From NCBI GenBank assembly GCA_019096065.1, contig JAGUCH010000001.1, forward strand, positions 17,112,001 to 17,176,000: 64,000 nt of DNA, given 5' to 3'. This DNA is from Paracyclopina nana. Taxonomy: Eukaryota; Arthropoda; Copepoda; Cyclopoida; Cyclopettidae. A model generated the notes under the pieces. The model was not told the DNA's origin, made no database searches, and was given only the letters and a program-made list of their open reading frames with translations. Shown piece after piece: positions 44,162 to 55,176 of the stretch (position 1 is its first letter; each line of letters opens with the position of its first letter). Both the position numbers and the translations under genes were made by a program.

Positions 44162-44897
44162 GAGGTTCTTCGGCATAATGTCGACGGGCAGCAGCAAACG
44201 CAAGGCTGCGGGGGGCAGCCCCTTGGGCTCCGGCATGGAGGACGCGGAGGACGTGCAAAAGGGCCTCGCGGCCTTTATGGGCGGTGGCGAGCCTGCGCCC
44301 GACTCCAACCTGCTCAGCCCCGTGCGCCAGGAGCTGGTGGGCGCCGGGCTGCTGCACGGTGAGCGGGCGTCTACGCTCCCGCCCGAGCCGTTCATGATCA
44401 TGCGGAGCAAAGCCATGAACCGGCGGGTGCTGCTCAACGTGGGCGGAACGAAGCACGAGGTGCTGTGGCGGACCCTTGACCGGCTCCCGCACACGCGGCT
44501 GGGCCGGCTGCGCGAGTGCAACACGCACGAGGCCTTGATGGAGTTGTGCGACGACTACAGCCTCGTGGACAACGAGTACTTCTTCGACCGCCACCCGCGC
44601 AGCTTCGCCTCCATCCTCAACTTCTTCCGGACGGGCAAGCTCCACCTGGTGGAGGAAATGTGCGTGCTGGCCTTCTCCGACGACCTCGACTACTGGGGCA
44701 TCGATGAGCTCTACTTGGAGAGCTGCTGCCAGCACAAGTACCATCAGAGGAAAGAGCACGTCCAGGAGGAAATGCGCAAGGAGGCTGAGTCCCTCAAAAC
44801 GGGCGAGGTCGAGGACTTTGGCGACGGCAAGTGCGCAGAGTACCAGAGGTTCTTGTGGGACCTGCTCGAAAAGCCCACCACTTCCATCGCTGCCAGG
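44162..44897 (+). other. Shab: Kv2 first coding exon: N-terminus and T1 tetramerisation domain
   Basis: Begins after acceptor TTTGCAG at 44161. ATG at 44178; ends exactly at a codon boundary (GCC AGG, donor GTGAGT). Residues about 80-185 are the T1/BTB domain ([59 protein letters not shown]), which fixes the subfamily as Kv2/Shab. Distinctly GC-rich compared with the other exons. Confidence 0.95.
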
Positions 44898-47800
44898 GTG
44901 AGTTGGTGTTCCTCTCCTTCATTATGGCTTGGTTGGCATTTTAGAAAGCAGTTGAGGGCATATAGATACTACAGGACGCGGCTCCGAAATCGCAATTCCG
45001 ATTCGCCTTTATTTACTTCTTAAGAGCAGACACTTCGGAGCCGCAGTCTGTACAGAGTGCGGCTCCGTAATTGCAATTCCTCGCTACAGCCGATTCGCCT
45101 TTATTTACTTCTTAAGAGCAGACATTTCGGAGCCGCAGTCTGTACAGGTTGCGGCTCCGAAATTGCAATTCCTCGCTACAGCCGATTCGCCTTTATTTAC
45201 TTCTTAAGAGCAGAAATTTATGAGCCGCAGTCTGTACAGGTTGCGGCTCCGAAATTGCAATTCCTCACTACAGCCGATTCGCCTTTATTTACTTCTTAAG
45301 AGCAGAAATTTATGAGCCGCAGTCTGTACAGGATGCGGCTCCGAAATTGCAATTCCTCGCTACGGCCGATTCGGCTTCTTTAATTGTTCAAAGCAGCCCG
45401 CTGCGTGCATTTTCGGAGCCGCATTCTGCATGATTGCGTGATCGAGAACAGATTGCTATTACATATCAAAACAGTATGGCTGTCATGCGATGGAAGAGCG
45501 TCGTTTCTATTTTCAATGGACTTTCCTGCCAGGTCCCATGGGATACTTTATATAAATACAGCTGCACTCATGTCAATTGATGCCCCACAAAAATGCCAAT
45601 ATTGGCTTTCGAGGGCAAACAAGCATATCGTCGTATTCACTGCAAATAAGTAACTTGGCAGAATAATGAGTCATTTCATAATAACTATACTGCTTTCCTG
45701 AAAAATGTGTATCAGCTTCGAGGGCAAAGTGTGCTCGTTTAGTGGTTATGCTGCAGCCTAATCAAGTGCCTTGCTAGCATACTATCGTTGCATTTGCTCA
45801 GCCAACCTGAATCCTGGCAAATTCTCACTTAGCTTTAGCTAAGCCATATCATATTCCTTCTTTTTTTCGAAAGCCCTTATGCTACGTACACTGCAGCAAA
45901 AAGAGGGTGTGGCTCTTTAATGTTCACTACGACGATCTTATGGGCTTATGTGCAGCTAGGCTAGAACGTATTTGGTAGAGAAGTCAAGTAGATTTTTATG
46001 TTGGCTCAGCAGTATGCCCCCCCCTTGTAGCCTACTATTTGCTCCCCAATTGCATAAAATGCCAGCCATATGTATGTAAAGCAAAAAATGGCTAACGTGA
46101 ACTAATCCTTACATGCAGGGTATACTACAGTTATATGTAAAAGCAAGCGTCAGGTTTGTAAATGCTGATCTGCAGTTGGCTCAAAAAACGATGTGATTCA
46201 GGCTGGCTGCCATAGTTTCAAAATGATGCGCGAAAATCCCCATTTTATTCTTGCATAGCACGAGCCAGCCTCATGAATTACATTGGCCTCCAACTGCTCT
46301 GTGTGCATGCAAAAGCATGGGAAAAACCTGCCGCTTTCTTATCACATCTTTATTAACAAAACGTATATAGGTTATTTACTACTCTATTGCTATTCTGGTG
46401 AATGGGCTGTGACAATGACCGTGCATTGTAAATCGTCTCCTTGTCCAAGTAGAGCTCTTGGTCGTCTTCATTCTTGTCATCATTTGATGATGATGATGCC
46501 ATCATTGTGGTCGTGTGTGTGTGTCAATAAATGGCCCCTCTTTTTGTGCGGCACGGCCACTCTCATCAGCTTTCACTGCTGGCTGTTGTTCCTCTTCTAA
46601 GCTGTCCTATCACAATGTAGGTGGTTGCAGTGATCTCGATTTCTTTCATCATCGTGTCGACCATTGCTCTGACCCTCAACACCATCCCAGCAATCTCCAA
46701 GTTTGATGAGCATGGCAACCAGATCGACAACCCCAAGTTGGCCATGGTTGAAGCTGTGTGCATCACGTGGTTCACTTTGGAATACATCCTTCGGTTCGCC
46801 ACTTCGCCCAACAAGTGGAAGTTCCTCAAGGGTGCGATGAATGTGATAGACATACTGGCCATCATGCCCTACTTCCTCTCCTTGTTCCTCATCGAGTCAA
46901 ACAAGGGCAATGCTGGATTCGAGAATGTCAGACGCATCGTCCAGGTCTTCAGGATCATGCGGATCCTCAGGATCTTCAAGCTGGCCCGACACTCGACGGG
47001 ACTCCAAAGCTTGGGGTTCACCCTCAAGAACAGCTACAAGGAGCTGGGCCTGCTCATGCTCTTTCTGGCCATGGGTGTCCTCATCTTCTCCAGCCTCGTC
47101 TATTTTGCTGAGAAAGACGAGGAAGACACCGCCTTCGGATCCATTCCGGAGACCTTTTGGTGGGCCATCATCACCATGACAACGGTGGGCTATGGTGACA
47201 TCTCCCCGACAACGGGTCTGGGCAAGATAGTCGGCTCCATGTGTGCGGTTTGCGGCGTACTGGTCATTGCACTGCCTATTCCCATTATAGTCAACAACTT
47301 TGCCGAGTTTTACAAGAACGAGATGCGCCGTGAAAAGGCTGTGAAACGAAAGGAGGCGATTGAACGGGCGAAGCGCGAGGGCGCCATTGTCTCCTTCCAC
47401 CATGTGAATCTCAGGAATGCTTTCGCCAAAAGCATGGATCTCGTCGATGTCATTGTTGACACAGGTACTACTGAGGCAATGATCCTCATTTGCTGTGGCC
47501 GTTTTCAGTGCGCTGATGCTGACCAAACTGTGTCTATAATCTATGATTTGAATTTGCTCTTGAATTGCTTTATTTTACTCTAACTCACTAACCGAGGTGG
47601 TTTTTTTCTTTTTTTTTTTGCATTTTTCACATCATTTTATTTTTTAATTTTCCTCCCACCTTTCTCCCCCCACCTTCCTTATCATATGAAGGTGGTAGCA
47701 AGCGTGAGCGTGACCTTCATTGTGGTGTCAACCGTCAGCCTCAGCCTCGGCACCATACCAGAATTCCAAGGCATTGATGAGTCGGGCAACCAAACGGAAA

Positions 47801-50800
47801 ATCTCATATTGGCAGTGGTTGAAGCTGTCTGCATAGCCTGGTTCACCTTTGAGTACCTCCTTCGATTTGCCTGCTCACCAAACAAGTGGCAGTTCTTCAA
47901 GGGTTGGCTGAATGTAATAGACTTGGTGGCCATACTGCCCTTTTACTTCTCCTTGGTTGTGGTCTCGACTGCCTCCTCAGAATCCTTTCAAGATATTCGC
48001 CGAGTTGTCCAAATCTTCAGGATCATGCGGATCATGCGCATCTTGAAGCTGGCTCGCCACTCGACGGGACTCCAAAGCCTTGGGTACACCGTGCAGAAAA
48101 GCTACAAGGAGCTCGGACTGCTCCTACTCTTTCTGGCCATGGGCGTACTCATTTTCGCCAGCTTGGCCTATTACGCTGAGCGAGACTTGCCAGACACAGC
48201 CTTCACTTCCATTCCAACGACCTTTTGGTGGGCCCTCATCACCATGACGACAGTCGGCTATGGCGACATGTACCCAGTCACACTATTTGGAAAGCTGGTC
48301 GGCTCCCTATGTGCGATCACAGGTGTACTTGTCGTCGCCCTTCCTATTCCAATTATTGTCAACGACTTTGGAGAGTTTTACAAGGAGAGGAGTCGCCAGG
48401 AGAAGGCTCTCAAGCGAAAGTATGCGAGAGAAGCTCGCAAACTCCCCCTACAGCTCAAGTTGATTTCACGAAAGAGAAACAGGAATGGAGTCAGTGAAAG
48501 TGTCTTTGACACTGACCAGGATGGGAAAGCAACGACTTCGATGGAGCTCAGAGAAATCATTCAGGAGCAAGGTACAAACATTTGTGTGGTGAAGGCGGAT
48601 ACAAATGAAGTCACCTTCGATCTACCAGACACCACATGCGTCATAGAGAACGATGAAGAGAAGAAAGTCGTGACTGCTCAAGAAGAAGACGAGAACAAAA
48701 ACCCCGACAACCAACGAGATTCCTAACTTTAGTTGAACTATCACTATTATTTTTAGTTTACCTGGAATTTTGCTGTTTATTTCCACATAAATATACTTTG
48801 TATGTGATTGAGGATTTATATCGTTTTTGAAAGCTAAAAAAACGTATCTGGCTTGTTCTCTCGGATATTGAGTAGACTTCTTTTGCAAAGCCACTCGTGG
48901 AGAACAAGCCTTTCCTAATTAATGCATGCACGCAAAGCGTAGTATACCAGAGTATACCCTATTATAACCCTCATTTTTTGCCTTATCCTCAATGTGATTT
49001 TCCATGCGAAAGCTGCACGAGACCTTTTCGTTTTTTTTGGGTTTTTTTTGCGTGGTTTGCTAAACTTTTTTACTCCTCACAGGAAAAGACATGCACTGGT
49101 TAATTTCAATAATTGCGTGGACCTCGAGATGATAACTTGAAGCAATTGGCATATATGAGTAAGATTAGGAGAGAATAGCCCAACTTCTTGTGAAATGTCC
49201 TCATAGTGAAAAAGTGATTTAGTTCATATTAGATATATCCCCTCATTAGCCCTATATAGACCAATTTATATACAATGTGTGTCTTGTGAGTGTTTCGAAG
49301 CACAATTATTTCGTGTCGTGTCGTTCATATAGACCTTTACAATCAGAGCATATAATAATTGGCTTGCATGAGGATCGTGCAAGTCATGTTCATTTCCTCA
49401 GTTGGTCAAAAAAGCCCTTTCTATTATTAGGAGCTGTTAGTCCCTTTATGTACGAGGCTTGATCCTTATGCGTTTTTTTCAAAATTCAAAGAGCTCCCAA
49501 ATATCAGAAAAAAATATTGGCAGCATGTAATGAATCAAGTTTCTAAAGTGGTGTTCATCTATTAAGGAAAATTGCAACTTTTTCCTCAAGCGAATAATTT
49601 AAGTACTGAGCTCGTGCTGATTATTAAAAGTTGATTTTTTGATTCCTAATAGATTTAATGTTAAATGATATCCCTAAGCACGAAAATGACAGAGTCTTTA
49701 AATCATTTTTCCCTTGAGGTAAGGAAAGGTGACGTAGATGAACACCACATATAAGGGGTACCTTTTTCCCAGTCACTTTCCAAAAACCGTGCAAGGAGCG
49801 AGCCTCAAAGTGTGAAAAAACGAGTTAGTTTGTAGTTGTGTTGGCAAGAAAAATGGAGCTCTTCTAGCTCCACCACCACGGGATCATCTTTTTTCGTCTT
49901 GTCAGCAGGAGCAACAGACGAAGGCACAAAATGGCAGCTAGCTCCCACAAATGTATGCATATAGTATATGCTCACTTAGAGTAAACCCCTTCCACTCGTT
50001 TTAGAAAGCATGCACGTTGAAGAGGAGAAAGTAGCACCTTTGGAGTAAATGGTTATTTTTCCAGGCAACAACATGTCCGTTTTGGGCAGTCAGCTGGAGA
50101 TTGATTTGGACCCAGATGGAGACCTCACTGTGGTGCCAAGGCACGTGGGCAACACTGGAACCGGCTGCTACAAAATGCACGACCACACCATCAGGGACAC
50201 GAAGAAGCCTGTCAACGTGCCAGTCTCCGAAAAAGTGGAGGCCACCTACATGTACGCAGAGCCCGAGGACGAGGACGAGGAGGAGGACGAGAGCCCGCAG
50301 GAGCCCGAGGCGGGCCCTAATCGGGGCAGCAGCAGCGAGGACGCGGGCCCGCAAACGACAACCCAGGATAATCAGGCCAATCATCGCAGTAATGCGCCGC
50401 ATTTGCTCGATGCCCCCCTCGGGGCGGGTCAGCCCGAATCGGGCCAACTGCAGCCCGCCCGCCAGCCCCTCAGCCCCAATTCCGACGCCTCGGGGCCCGG
50501 AGTAAGTTTTTCGCATCTAGCTCCTGCCTAAATGTACTACCTTTGCTTATTTATGGTTATATACTGCTACGCTGCACTACTCACTTTATTCCCAATGTAT
50601 TTAGTTAGATACACTGTATCCGTTAAAGTACTGCTAGCGTACACCACTGCTCTCGTATTATATATCTAATCCAAAGCATCCTCCGTATTTTTTATTGCCA
50701 TCAGGGAGATGATGACTTTGATGTAAGAACCCCAACTATGAGAATTTTAGTGCGTGAATTGCTGGATAGCACTCCAATGGACCTGGAAACGGGCCTCGTA

Positions 50801-53800
50801 CTATCACGCAAGGTTAGGCTCTTTTTTCACTCTCCAAACCTTTTTTTTGTATGCCGTTTTATTATACTTCTTTTCGATTACATTTTCCATTTTGAAGCTC
50901 AATTTTGAATTTGCCAAGCTGACAAGAGATAAATTGCTTATCTGCTCTGATGCCCAACCAAACAAATCATGGCTTTTTGAGGTCTCTTCTGCATGGGGGT
51001 GCGTTAATTCAAAAAGGAACTTGTATGAGCAAGCTTCCTTTTGCAGTTAACGCGCCCTCCATCAAAAAGCCATGATTTCTTTTGGCTTGGGGGTTTTCTC
51101 GCGTGTTGATCTCTTTGCACACATCCAAACACACATCGCATATTTTATTTGCTTTTTTGGCCACATTCAGAAAGAGAGACGAAAAAATGCCATCTTGTTT
51201 GGTGATGCACTCTTCTGCTACTCCATAAAATACTACAAGAGCGTTTACTTAGGACAAGAATGCCTGGAAGCAAAGAGCTGACAACTGAGCTTTTTTCGGA
51301 ATATCCTATCATTAATAATTTTCGCATATTAGAAATAATTGGTCATTCCTGTGGAAAAAGGTCAATTTAAAATTTACTGTCAGCTCTTTGGTTTTAGGCT
51401 TTAGTGCTTTATTTGCGCCACAGCAGTGCTTCCAATTTTCTCTATTGTCCCCTTTCTTTGGTTCATCATAAATAGCACAACTCAGGCTTTAGCATACTTT
51501 TTAAGAATGATTTAAAGTTCTCTTGATTGATTGATCAATAGAATGGCAAAAATCTGCGAGCAGGGTGGATTAATTGTCCATAAATCATCTGCATCACACG
51601 AAAGAGAATTGGTTTGGTTAATGGCGAGGAGGGTGACTATCTCTAATCCCTTAAATTGCTTTCTGTAATGAATGTGTACTACTTACACGAGAGTACCTTA
51701 CTGAAAGTACAAAAGCTACTCTACTGTGTTCATCTACTAAATTAAATCACAATCTATAGCCAATTCCAATATTGGGGCTGATTGCATCATGAAAACATGA
51801 AATCACTTTTGGCTTTTTCCGCTAATAAATGGCCAATTTTACCGCTTATCAAATGGTGGCGCTCTCTGTATCTCTAGTAGGCGCTTGCAGCGCCCTCTAG
51901 TTCGATTTTGGGCATCAAGCTGCGTTTCTAGTAGATGAACACCACACAAAAAGGAGGTCGAGTGAGACACATGATTCCATGGGTAATTACAGTAGTATAA
52001 CAAGTTATAATGATTGTTGCATCGCACTTCTGTTGCTGTTGCTTCTGTTATTTAGCAAGACGAATCACCTTGCTCTCACGATCGTGTTCTCCGTGATTTG
52101 TTCACTCTTCACCACAGCTTCTGTGCTACAGCATACAACATATACAAAGGGAAAATTGGTTGCACTACTAGCTCCTTCTGCTAAATAATGATTGTTCCTA
52201 TGTGTACCACGTGGGGAGCAGACTTTTATGGATAATTTATCAGAAACCCTGCCATTTCAGGATCCAAGCAGCAATCAGTCAGAGATGGAAGAAATTCCAC
52301 TTCAGTTACGATCAATGCCTAAGTTTTCCTAAGACAACACAAAATTCACTTCAGTTCCCTTTTGAGTTAAATTCTACCTGCTGCACGTGTCACTGCTACT
52401 ACAAAGTAAATAAGAGATGTCTTCGTCGTCATCATCATCATCCATGAGCATCCAGCAAGACTCCACATGATCAACGCAATGCATCCGTCCCCTTCTACTA
52501 CTACTACATTGATATAGATTACAAGCACGCAAAAATAGCCCCCATTTTCTCGGTGTACACCACGATTTACTAGAAATTGTGGCCAAGGTGAGTCACAGTG
52601 CATCAAATATACTGATTTATTGTGTGTGCGAGAGCCCTTTTTTGCATGGCAATTCCAGCTTGCACATTATTAGCATAACAATTCCAGTAGTACTTTTTAA
52701 TGTGCACTCTTATACATACGTTAAATAACAGCGTCATACAGATTGCCCCACGCTTATCGGAGCGCGAAAAATAGATCGGGCGCCAAGTCGAGCTGAGAGC
52801 GGCTAGCGCTACGCAGTGCGTGCATGGCACGGCGCGCGTTGCCTGAAAATACGCCCTAGACTCGTAGGCTCGTTTCAACTCTGGATTTGCTCCGATAAGT
52901 GTGGGAGAACCTGTATTTAACTCTGTCTGCCTTGGCAAGTCAATGCTGATGATGATTTCTTGCAATAGGACGAGGGCAAGAGGTTCAACTTCAATTCAAG
53001 GCACAGCACTGATGCTTTGGACAAAGCTGTCCTGGTGCAAGACGTTGGGGCGGGACAAGTACCAACCGCTATTGTGCAGGATACCCAGGACCATTTCAAG
53101 TCACTGGACAGATTCGGATCACTCGATAGCTCAGACACTTTCCTAAGCTGCAACACCCATCCCTACCCATCCCAAGGCTCCTTGGCTGGCCTTGAACAGC
53201 TCGCGGCCGTGGGCTCCATGGCGCCCAACGGATCCATGCCAGCCGTTAACATTCCCAGCTTCAATAACGGGGTCTTTTACGTCAACCCGTTCGACCCTGG
53301 ACGGGGGAAAACGAGGCATCGGAACCAGATACACAACATGGCCGCCGGGGGGATGACACCGAGTCCCCAAGGGAGTCCGCAGAGCAGGAGAGTGAGGAGA
53401 CTCGGAGCCAGAAGTGCGAGCTCAGATGTGGAGCTGGCCGACTTCGAAAGCGATTTCTCTGCGGCCAACAGGGAGGCCTACCATGAGGACGTGACCACTC
53501 CGAAGCACCGTAGAATGCGCCAGGTTTGGGATACATTCAATATTATAAGCTTAACTGGCTTTCAACCGGCTTGAACTAATTTCAGTCAATTTCAGCTGAT
53601 TTTATGCTTTCAGCTGATGTTAGCAAATTTCACTCTAAGATTCGAACGGCTCTCAGTACATAATGATTAAGGCTACTTTCCACTGACTTCCTGATCTCCG
53701 CATTTCTCAGCTAATCTCAGCTATTGTCAGCTGATCTCAACTATTGTCTACTGATCTCAATTGTTGTCAGCTGATCTCAGCTTTTCCAGGCTGATCTCAA

Positions 53801-55176
53801 CTATTGTCAGCTGATCTCAGCTATTGTGAGCTAATCTCAACTATTGTCCGCTGATCTCAACTATTATCAGCTGATCTCAGCTTTCCTAGGCTGATCTCAA
53901 CTATTGTCAGCTGATCTCAGCTTTCCCAGGCTGTTGTCAGCTTTTCTCAGTTGATCTCATTGTCAGCTAATCTCAGTTAGTGCCAGATGATCTCAACTAT
54001 TGTGAGCTGATCTTAGCTTTCCTTTGGTGATTGTGATGGATTTCAGCTGAATTAAGCTATTTTTAGCCAATGACAACTGAATAATCAGCTGATTTAGGCT
54101 ACTTTGAGCGAATTTTGGCTAGTACAACCTGATTTGATTTTTTAATAAATGTTCACAGGCAAATTTCTTCATTGCAGCAAGCCTCAACAAGCAAACCCCG
54201 TCCTCGTTTCGAAATCGACTCAGATGCACCCATGGCCTTAAATGAGGCTGACGGGGGTGCCCGACGTCCATCATACATGCCCACACGTGGCTTAGCTGCT
54301 GTTCTCAATCAGGGACTCGTTTCACTGGGTGAAAAACTGGGTAAATCCTATATAACTTAATCTGCTTTTAAGGCACAGTTTAGATGATTGTATTTTGCAG
54401 GCAAAGGGAGTCGAACGACCTCAATGTCCTCGAGCGAGGCTTTGGACATGCAAGTGGTGCGTCGAGTGGTCGCGAGTCCGTCCTCCGAGGCCAACAACGG
54501 AAGCAAGAAAAAATCCATCCTCAAAAAGTCCGAGTCCGCCAATTGCCAGCCAACTTCAGCTAAAATCAAGGCCAACCCGAAAGATCCCGAGCTCGAGAAC
54601 CTGCTTGTCTCCGATCATGAGACTGACATTGGGTCACCAGCATTGGCGAGACGAGTCATCAACCCACAGCTTCCACCCACGACCAAAAGCGAGCACTTGA
54701 AGGCCTTAACAGGGCCCAAATTGAGGCTGGGCGCGAGAAAGTCCATCCTGTTGAATGCGAGCAATAATGCCATGAATAATGGCAACGTGGCCTCCAAGGA
54801 AATTCAGACGTCCACTGCCAGCCTCTTGGCTTTGGCAGCCTCCACGGCCAACAATAACATCAATGTGGGTGATGCTGCCAAAAAGTTCGAACGAGGCCGC
54901 GAGGCTGCCGTTGTGGCTGAGGCCGCCTCGTCCTCAGTGGCCTCACCTGTTGCTGCCAGTAATGGTGGCAGCAATAATCAGCAGCCTGTATTCAAGTGTC
55001 CCAATGAGATGTGTCGCCATAATACAGCTTCGGCCTCTGTGACAGCTTCCAAGCGCAAGATTTGCCTCTGTGGAAGAACCATGGTGAACCAGAGCCTGTT
55101 GCTCGAGAGCTCCAAAGTGAGTGGTCGAGAGCAGCCCAATGGTGCCAACTCTGAGCAAATATCCTCGTCGTCATAA
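44178..55176 (+). CDS. Shab: Voltage-gated potassium channel Kv2 (Shab), alternatively spliced
   Basis: Delayed-rectifier K+ channel alpha subunit in the plasma membrane of excitable cells. Isoform A exons: 44178-44897, 46621-47464, 50065-50501, 50705-50812, 52969-53523, 54178-54340, 54401-55176; in phase, 1200 residues. Isoform B: 44178-44897 plus 47692-48726, 584 residues. T1 lies in exon 1 and S1-S6 in exon 2A or 2B. Each core carries the S4 arginine ladder ([20 protein letters not shown] in A), the selectivity filter TMTTVGYGD and the PIP hinge of S6. The long C-terminus of A has an acidic run, a [11 protein letters not shown] sequence resembling the Kv2 clustering/FFAT-like motif, and a final C-x4-C and C-x-C cluster. 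Splicing 2A to 2B would shift the frame. Exon 50705 may alternatively end at 50722. Confidence 0.93.
44972..45432. repeat. 92-bp tandem repeat in Kv2 intron 1, about five copies
   Basis: GCGGCTCCG starts at 44978, 45059, 45151, 45243 and 45335, so spacing is 92 bp except for the first. Each unit holds GCGGCTCCGAAAT and, about 75 bp later, an inverted partner such as ATTTCGGAGCCGC, so every unit can fold into a stem. The last partner is at about 45413-45425. Confidence 0.95.
45433..46620 (+). other. Remainder of Kv2 intron 1
   Basis: About 1.2 kb up to acceptor CACAATGTAG. No gene, repeat or element identified. Confidence 0.7.
46621..47464 (+). other. Shab: Kv2 alternative core exon 2A (S1-S6)
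   Basis: 281 codons plus one base, starting [12 protein letters not shown] directly after the acceptor. Encodes the complete voltage sensor and pore; ends [13 protein letters not shown] at a phase-1 donor GTACTA that joins exon 3 at 50065. The post-S6 segment [20 protein letters not shown] follows the standard Kv2 pattern. Confidence 0.93.
47692..48726 (+). other. Shab: Kv2 alternative core exon 2B (S1-S6) with its own stop
   Basis: Begins [12 protein letters not shown] at the same splice phase as 2A and after a long pyrimidine tract (about 47600-47685, then ATGAAG). S1-S6 are closely similar to 2A, with differences concentrated in the S1-S2 and S3-S4 loops and after S6. Read through, it ends in an acidic tail ([10 protein letters not shown]-type composition, then [14 protein letters not shown]) and TAA at 48724-48726. 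A phase-1 donor GTACAA at 48572 would instead let it join exon 3. There is no separate T1 exon nearby, so it is an alternative exon rather than a second gene. Confidence 0.88.
48727..50064 (+). other. Region after Kv2 exon 2B
   Basis: Would be the 3' UTR of isoform B and an intron for isoform A. I find no canonical AATAAA soon after 48726, only ACATAAA near 48785. A small MITE lies at 49548-49748. Confidence 0.5.
49548..49748. mobile_element. About 200-bp MITE of the TGTTCATCTA family
   Basis: Ends GTGGTGTTCATCT and AGATGAACACCAC are perfect inverted repeats. AT-rich interior without coding capacity. Confidence 0.85.
50705..50812 (+). other. Shab: Kv2 exon 4 with two possible donors
   Basis: After acceptor ATTGCCATCAG. 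A GTAAGA donor at 50723 would give an 18-nt micro-exon (G-D-D-D-F-D). A GTTAGG donor at 50813 gives 36 codons (through [18 protein letters not shown] and LVLSRK). Both keep frame with exon 5; GTAAGA is the better donor, but the extra 30 codons are open and protein-like. Confidence 0.7.
50952..51092. repeat. Inverted repeat / small MITE in Kv2 intron 4
   Basis: The left arm contains AAATCATGGCTTTTTGA and GGGTGCGTTAA; the right arm contains TTAACGCGCCC and TCAAAAAGCCATGATTT. Total about 140 bp. Confidence 0.75.
51726..51945. mobile_element. About 220-bp MITE of the TGTTCATCTA family
   Basis: Left GTGTTCATCTAC, right GTAGATGAACACCAC. In Kv2 intron 4. No coding capacity. Confidence 0.8.
53600..54110. 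repeat. Degenerate CAGCTGATCTCAACTATTGT minisatellite
   Basis: Kv2 intron 5 is mostly variants of TCAGCTGATCTCARCTATTG in irregular tandem copies of about 20-30 bp, most regular at 53700-53960. The palindrome CAGCTG recurs many times. Confidence 0.92.

Follow-up and report, generated by a model that had tools for sequence, protein, structure and literature searches.

A copepod Kv2 (Shab) gene with a tandem duplication of the exon for its entire S1-S6 core, and a predicted choice of one core per transcript

Where ion channels swap exons, the exchange usually adjusts only a short segment of the protein: the alternative exons of Slo, para, Cacophony and CACNA1C exchange part of the channel, and the Kv2.1 gene is built with a single core. 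One survey finds tandem exon duplication to be enriched among voltage-gated channels, and ion transport accounts for 27 of the 154 fly genes and 42 of the 214 human genes with tandem-duplicated-exon events; Shab has zero occurrences in the main text of the same survey (PMC9741552). A second source lists shab once for a crab and once for a lobster (PMC5096308). Here we describe a Kv2 (Shab) gene of the cyclopoid copepod Paracyclopina nana, on the + strand of a stretch of 64,000 nucleotides (the window; C1:17112001-17176000 of a 92-Mb, 10-contig genome, the one genome analysed), which comprises a single T1 exon, two homologous core exons (2A and 2B) and one Kv2 tail. The genome contains at least 80 matches to Chitin_bind_4, in keeping with an arthropod source, and a search of it for COX1 gave no match. 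Positions below are those of the window unless a contig is named. Our preferred explanation, to which we assign a probability of roughly three in four, is that this is one Kv2 gene whose whole-core exon was duplicated in tandem, and that its T1 exon would be joined to one core only.

Two complete cores behind one T1 exon

The T1 exon (44178..44897, start codon included) is common to both isoforms, matches the Pfam family BTB_2 with an E value of 8e-31 and ends in phase 0 at the donor AGG/GTGAGT. Core exon 2A (46621..47464, 844 nt) encodes S1-S6 and the Kv2 proximal tail as far as VDT-G, and ends at the donor CAG/GTACTA; core exon 2B, taken in its internal-exon form (47692..48571, 880 nt), encodes S1-S6 and a linker and ends at the donor AAG/GTACAA, which is homologous to that of 2A. 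Both cores start directly after an AG. The intron that separates them (47465..47691) is 227 bp long and contains two CTAAC sites resembling branch points and a long pyrimidine tract. An earlier reading of the same DNA (the original prediction) had the coordinates, phases and spacing of the two exons right.

That reading also held that each exon encodes a complete voltage sensor, pore and S6, and this is borne out by domain and motif matches. Matches to the Pfam family Ion_trans span residues 3-234 in 2A, with an E value of 3e-52, and 4-233 in 2B, with one of 1e-51, and both exons carry the TMTTVGYGD selectivity filter and the PIP motif of S6. For each core the top match among solved structures is Kv2.1 (E 5e-129 for 2A and 2e-110 for 2B), and not Kv1, Kv3 or Kv4. 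The two cores match one another at E 4e-109, so that their likeness is not due to chance; they share 65% of residues (168/257 pairs in the first 300 alignment columns, which hold S1-S6 and slightly more), and their identity to human Kv2.1 (KCNB1) over the core is 71% for 2A (183/257) and 67% for 2B (172/256). Given the 65% protein identity, it is unlikely that 2A and 2B are two assembled alleles rather than two exons.

The alternative named at the outset was that 2B belongs to a separate gene with a T1 exon of its own. We found no second T1 in the window, where three further matches to this domain have E values of only 5.4 to 8.8. Outside the window the genome contains three more close Kv2 genes, a tandem pair on contig C3 (C3a and C3b) and a single gene on contig C2, and each of their T1 exons adjoins its own single core. 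We also considered two tandem genes, one of which had lost its T1, and rejected this reading: the tail lies downstream of 2B rather than between the cores, and the cores are only 227 bp apart, which indicates that the exon alone was duplicated.

Reading frame, splice signals and the end of exon 2B

The phase is 0 at the end of the T1 exon and at the start of either core, and 1 where the cores end (47464 and 48571); the first exon of the shared tail requires phase 1. We modelled this tail (50065-55176) on splice signals and reading frame. It consists of exon 3 (50065..50501), which starts with GNNMSVLG and includes TGTGCYK; exon 4 (50705..50722), an 18-nt micro-exon (GDDDFD) placed by splice signals and frame only; exon 5 (52969..53523), in which TFLSCNT follows SLDSSD; exon 6 (54178..54340); and exon 7, the last (54401..55176), which ends in a TAA stop. 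With this tail, T1-2A-tail reads open to the last stop for 1170 amino acids and T1-2B-tail for 1182; if T1-2B instead continues to the stop at 48726 in the 2B frame, its product has 584. When 2A is joined to 2B, a stop follows 28 codons past 2A; the out-of-frame stop had been foreseen, at a distance of about 25 codons, which we correct here. When both cores are skipped and T1 is joined to exon 3, the frame is also lost, with a stop after 450 residues. Since joint inclusion stops early and joint skipping shifts the frame, a normal Kv2 protein needs exactly one core. The claim that a functional transcript must choose one core thus holds in its frame logic, and the frameshift on double skipping extends it; the splicing itself we infer, and 2B may be an internal exon, a last exon or both. 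As a side observation, the intron modelled to separate exon 5 from exon 6 contains a degenerate 20-bp unit, CTGATCTCAGCTATTGTCAG, in 16.6 copies with 73% matches (53691-54018).

In the preferred explanation, the pre-mRNA would join the shared T1 exon to 2A or to 2B, and transcripts with both cores or neither, being out of frame, would give no normal channel. The signals ahead of the two cores differ. Two CTAAC sites lie 100 and 108 nt before 2B and are followed by 93 nt free of AG, and pyrimidines make up 82% of the 50-nt stretch that ends three bases short of 2B; the 2A acceptor has 17 AG-free nucleotides and 66% pyrimidine. Regulated exons are known to occur behind a distant branch point and a long tract. 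The same 227-bp gap might instead hold a start of transcription, from which 2B alone would be expressed as a channel without T1, beginning at an in-frame ATG (47686) two codons upstream of 2B in an open frame that extends back to 47584. We regard this as highly improbable: the gap has the look of a splice acceptor (the CTAAC pair, the AG-free run and the pyrimidine content just given), the ATG has a C at -3, and 2B starts at the phase of the T1-S1 intron that is common to C3a and C3b. Within intron 1, at 44998-45377, a 92-bp unit is repeated in 4.1 copies that are 95% alike; the array bears hairpins whose complementary GC-rich arms (GCGGCTCCGAAAT and ATTTCGGAGCCGC) match perfectly in part of the copies and imperfectly in the rest.

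The original prediction placed the end of 2B at 48726. An open-frame stop does lie there, but the donor homologous to that of 2A, at 48571, offers an earlier exon end. When the 42-nt donor region of 2A was slid across 2368 positions (47692-50059), the best match was at 48571, with 24 of 42 positions identical (next best, 20; mean over the 2368 positions, 10.7; standard deviation [SD], 2.9), and in the same phase. Because this donor is homologous and in phase, 2B probably descends from an exon that had it. Tandem exons of the mutually exclusive kind are adjacent and homologous, have usable splice signals and share their phase at both ends, and 2A and 2B have all of these properties if 2B is taken to end at 48571; in the strict sense, the two are mutually exclusive only if that donor joins the shared tail. 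One form of the preferred explanation would make 2B strictly such an internal exon, always spliced from 48571 to 50065, with the sequence that follows as intron. The homology and phase of the donor and the frame that stays open for 1182 amino acids speak for it, but the sequence beyond the donor resembles coding sequence, and on balance we consider this form unlikely.

The sequence in question (48572..48726) continues 2B in frame for 51 codons from the split Gly; it is acidic, ends in its own TAA stop and would provide an alternative C terminus. Openness by itself means little here, as about 7% of comparable intron windows are free of stops. Its composition, however, is coding-like. A codon score derived from five further exons of the Kv2 gene was 0.264 for the extension in its own frame and no more than 0.010 in any of the other five frames, and the value of 0.264 was reached by 0 of 5000 plain shuffles and by 1 of 1500 stop-free shuffles; its score against intron background was reached by none of 859 stop-free intron windows, which overlap and are not independent. 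Its excess of purines at codon position 1 is likewise rare (15 of 20000 shuffles; 1 of 859 overlapping intron windows). These figures are what favours the opposite form of the preferred explanation, in which 2B is strictly an alternative last exon: T1 would be joined either to 2A and the tail or to 2B read to the stop at 48726 and followed by polyadenylation, so that the choice of core is also the choice of tail and 2B channels never carry the FFAT-like anchor discussed below. The coding end and stop of its own that such an exon should have are seen in 2B in composition only. Set against it, the donor at 48571 has been kept in register and phase, though the same letters also code for Gly-Thr, and there is no AATAAA between 48727 and 50064, where a search for AATAAA and ATTAAA returned just ATTAAA at 49623; a variant, CATAAA, occurs at 48786. 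We put this form at a little short of an even chance. Since the homologous donor was kept and yet the extension is coding-like, we retain both ends in the preferred explanation: 2B may end in a private acidic tail (stop at 48726) or may receive the shared tail through 48571.

Constraint on exon 2B and the other Kv2 genes

Between 2A and 2B, the nonsynonymous divergence (dN) is 0.24-0.27 and the synonymous divergence (dS) 0.78-1.11. In a neutral simulation of 252 codons, with indels ignored, copies free of stops numbered 64, 11 and 2 of 2000 at 0.2, 0.4 and 0.55 changes per site. Exon 2B retains the S2 motif (WFTxEY), the Asp of S3, S4, TVGYGD and PIP. On these grounds, 2B looks constrained. 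The suggestion that it encodes a silent KvS subunit is not supported, with TVGYGD, S4 and PIP all intact.

Several findings weigh against the explanation that we prefer, and two of them concern 2B itself. It evolves faster than 2A (branch lengths of 0.38 and 0.076), and none of the other sequences tested is altered at as many invariant positions: 2B has changes at 16 of the 124 positions that do not vary in five other Kv2 sequences, several of the changes being I/V, D/E, Y/F or K/R, as against 11/122 for the C2 gene, 8/119 for the human protein, 7/118 for C3a and 3/114 for 2A in like counts with C3b left out. One might suppose that 2B is a decaying, unused duplicate, or that it is spliced solely into nonsense transcripts for dosage control. 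The long branch of 2B would suit such decay, but the open frame, a dN/dS well below 1 and the intact functional motifs would not, and we think this quite unlikely.

The remaining points concern splicing. The argument draws on the genome sequence of one species, from which the splicing is deduced. The 2B donor is weaker than that of 2A in its pairing with U1 (-5.6 vs -7.1; the modelled donors of the gene range from -4.3 to -9.6), and inside both 2A and 2B there are stronger, unused GT sites. Steric exclusion has been given a criterion of less than 50 bp in one study (PMC5740500); the 2A donor and the CTAAC sites are 119-127 nt apart, so that steric exclusion is not predicted from them, although weaker matches to yUnAy, 24, 52 and 58 nt from that donor, may allow it. 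When the short intron was tested, by its first 150 nt, for RNA pairing with either half of intron 1 and with 48727-49500, the results were 1.9, 0.6 and 2.2 SD beyond the mean of 60 plain shuffles, and in all three tests some of the shuffles went lower. The reading frame together with nonsense decay remains as a mechanism that can suffice for the one-core outcome. Frame-breaking lengths of this type are reported in the same study for 377 of 629 human clusters (60%; PMC5740500).

The other close Kv2 genes bear on the age of the duplication. C3a and C3b have the T1-S1 intron in the same phase as the window gene, and the C2 gene has no intron there; read to the first in-frame stop, all three have short tails without an FFAT-like motif. 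A first tree, with Kv3 and Kv4 outgroups, was set aside owing to its long branches. In the protein tree that we retained, 2A rather than 2B is the core closer to the C2, C3a and C3b genes, but support is weak (68/85 when Kv1 outgroups are included and 67/57 when they are not). A sister relationship of 2A and 2B received a p-AU (approximately unbiased test) of 0.0925 with the Kv1 outgroups and 0.046 without them, in a test that was named after a first tree had been seen. Of nine informative sites, six group 2B with human, two group 2A with human and one groups 2A with 2B. At fourfold degenerate sites, 2A and 2B differ at 32 of 82 and C3a and C3b at 64 of 109, and either core differs from the C2, C3a and C3b genes at 0.47-0.66 of sites. 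Protein and synonymous signals conflict over the age of the 2A/2B duplication relative to that of these genes, and we give no date; either signal could result from rapid change in 2B or from gene conversion. A scan of viral contigs with 2B gave three pattern matches and no relative.

C3a and C3b (C3:11110482-11115711) form a tandem pair of whole Kv2 genes whose cores are 90% identical (255/284), and have a long Thr/Glu-rich insert between S3 and S4; their dN/dS is about 0.03, far below that of 2A/2B. We considered them as a second case of a doubled core and rejected this, as each has its own T1 and they are hence two genes. In a more distant Kv2-like gene (C2:1344338-1348453), an intron appears to split the selectivity filter (TTV/GYGD).

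Predicted channels and comparison with known systems

If the preferred explanation holds, 2A would give a canonical Kv2 channel with a long tail, and 2B another Kv2 channel that also conducts but differs from the first in its S3-S4 paddle and outer pore, made with the short acidic tail, with the shared tail, or in both forms; one gene would thus probably make two different channels. The paddle motif ESNK, present in 2A and in human Kv2.1, is absent from 2B. At the position of Kv2.1 Tyr380, the external tetraethylammonium (TEA) site, 2A has Ser (codon 47203..47205) and 2B has Tyr (48271..48273); in a study of Kv2.1, changing Tyr380 to Ala raised the half-maximal inhibitory concentration of TEA about 3-fold (PMC6121469). 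In the tail, TFLSCNT of exon 5 resembles the VAP-binding FFAT-like motif, which in mammalian Kv2 is SFISCAT (the Kv2.1 form) or SFTSCAT (PMC6380216) and tethers Kv2 to the endoplasmic reticulum (ER); in the copepod gene the anchor is predicted by motif resemblance only, and a search of the PDB with the tail exon that bears it gave no Kv2 match. A 2B isoform that ends at 48726 would lack TFLSCNT, which would reach 2B only through 48571.

Because the T1 domain is identical, the 2A and 2B products should be able to co-assemble. We tentatively suggest, with confidence well below an even chance, that a single splice decision swaps voltage sensor, pore and tail together: 2A channels would be anchored at ER-plasma membrane contacts and less sensitive to external TEA, 2B channels would have an acidic tail, no anchor and the TEA-site Tyr, and graded mixed 2A/2B tetramers would arise from a single locus. 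Such tetramers, if they exist, would be a one-gene counterpart of the mixing of Kv2 with KvS subunits in vertebrates. Should transcripts confirm the arrangement, the locus would amount to a natural chimera experiment, which would show how far sensor and pore can diverge (35% of residues) under one T1, and it would allow a test of whether a splice switch couples biophysics with ER-plasma membrane tethering. The genome has also expanded Kv2 by copying whole genes (C3a and C3b), so both routes can be compared side by side.

The gene shares with Kv2/Shab channels, as exemplified by human Kv2.1, the T1 domain, S1-S6, the TMTTVGYGD filter, the PIP motif of S6 and an FFAT-like motif in the tail. It departs from Kv2.1, and from the three other close Kv2 genes of this genome, in having two cores behind one T1 where they have one each, and 2B departs from Kv2.1 in its S3-S4 paddle and C terminus. 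The Drosophila gustatory receptor genes Gr28b and Gr39a, which combine alternative large exons, with separate promoters and first exons, with shared small ones, are alike in that the proteins made from a single gene differ in their membrane cores but have one end in common; in the Kv2 gene, however, the shared T1 exon lies ahead of the cores, and splicing would make the choice. The silent KvS subunits (Kv5, Kv6, Kv8 and Kv9), which modify Kv2, similarly supply a second Kv2-like core able to co-assemble with the main one, but 2B retains the conducting motifs listed above and comes from the same gene. As in the tandem or mutually exclusive exons of Slo, para, Cacophony and CACNA1C (PMC9741552), the two exons are adjacent and homologous, have the same phases and are usable only one at a time. 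The swapped unit in the Kv2 gene is instead the entire voltage sensor and pore, about 250 residues. Among the open-access titles and abstract openings surveyed, we found no report of a Kv channel with two whole S1-S6 exons, in agreement with the original remark that exchange of the whole core was not known from vertebrate Kv2 or from Shab of the fly. Although ion channels often have tandem exons, our searches of that literature showed none that carries a whole six-helix core. In the Kv2 gene, what is swapped would be a channel core in its entirety, and the domain that determines which subunits assemble would be kept constant.

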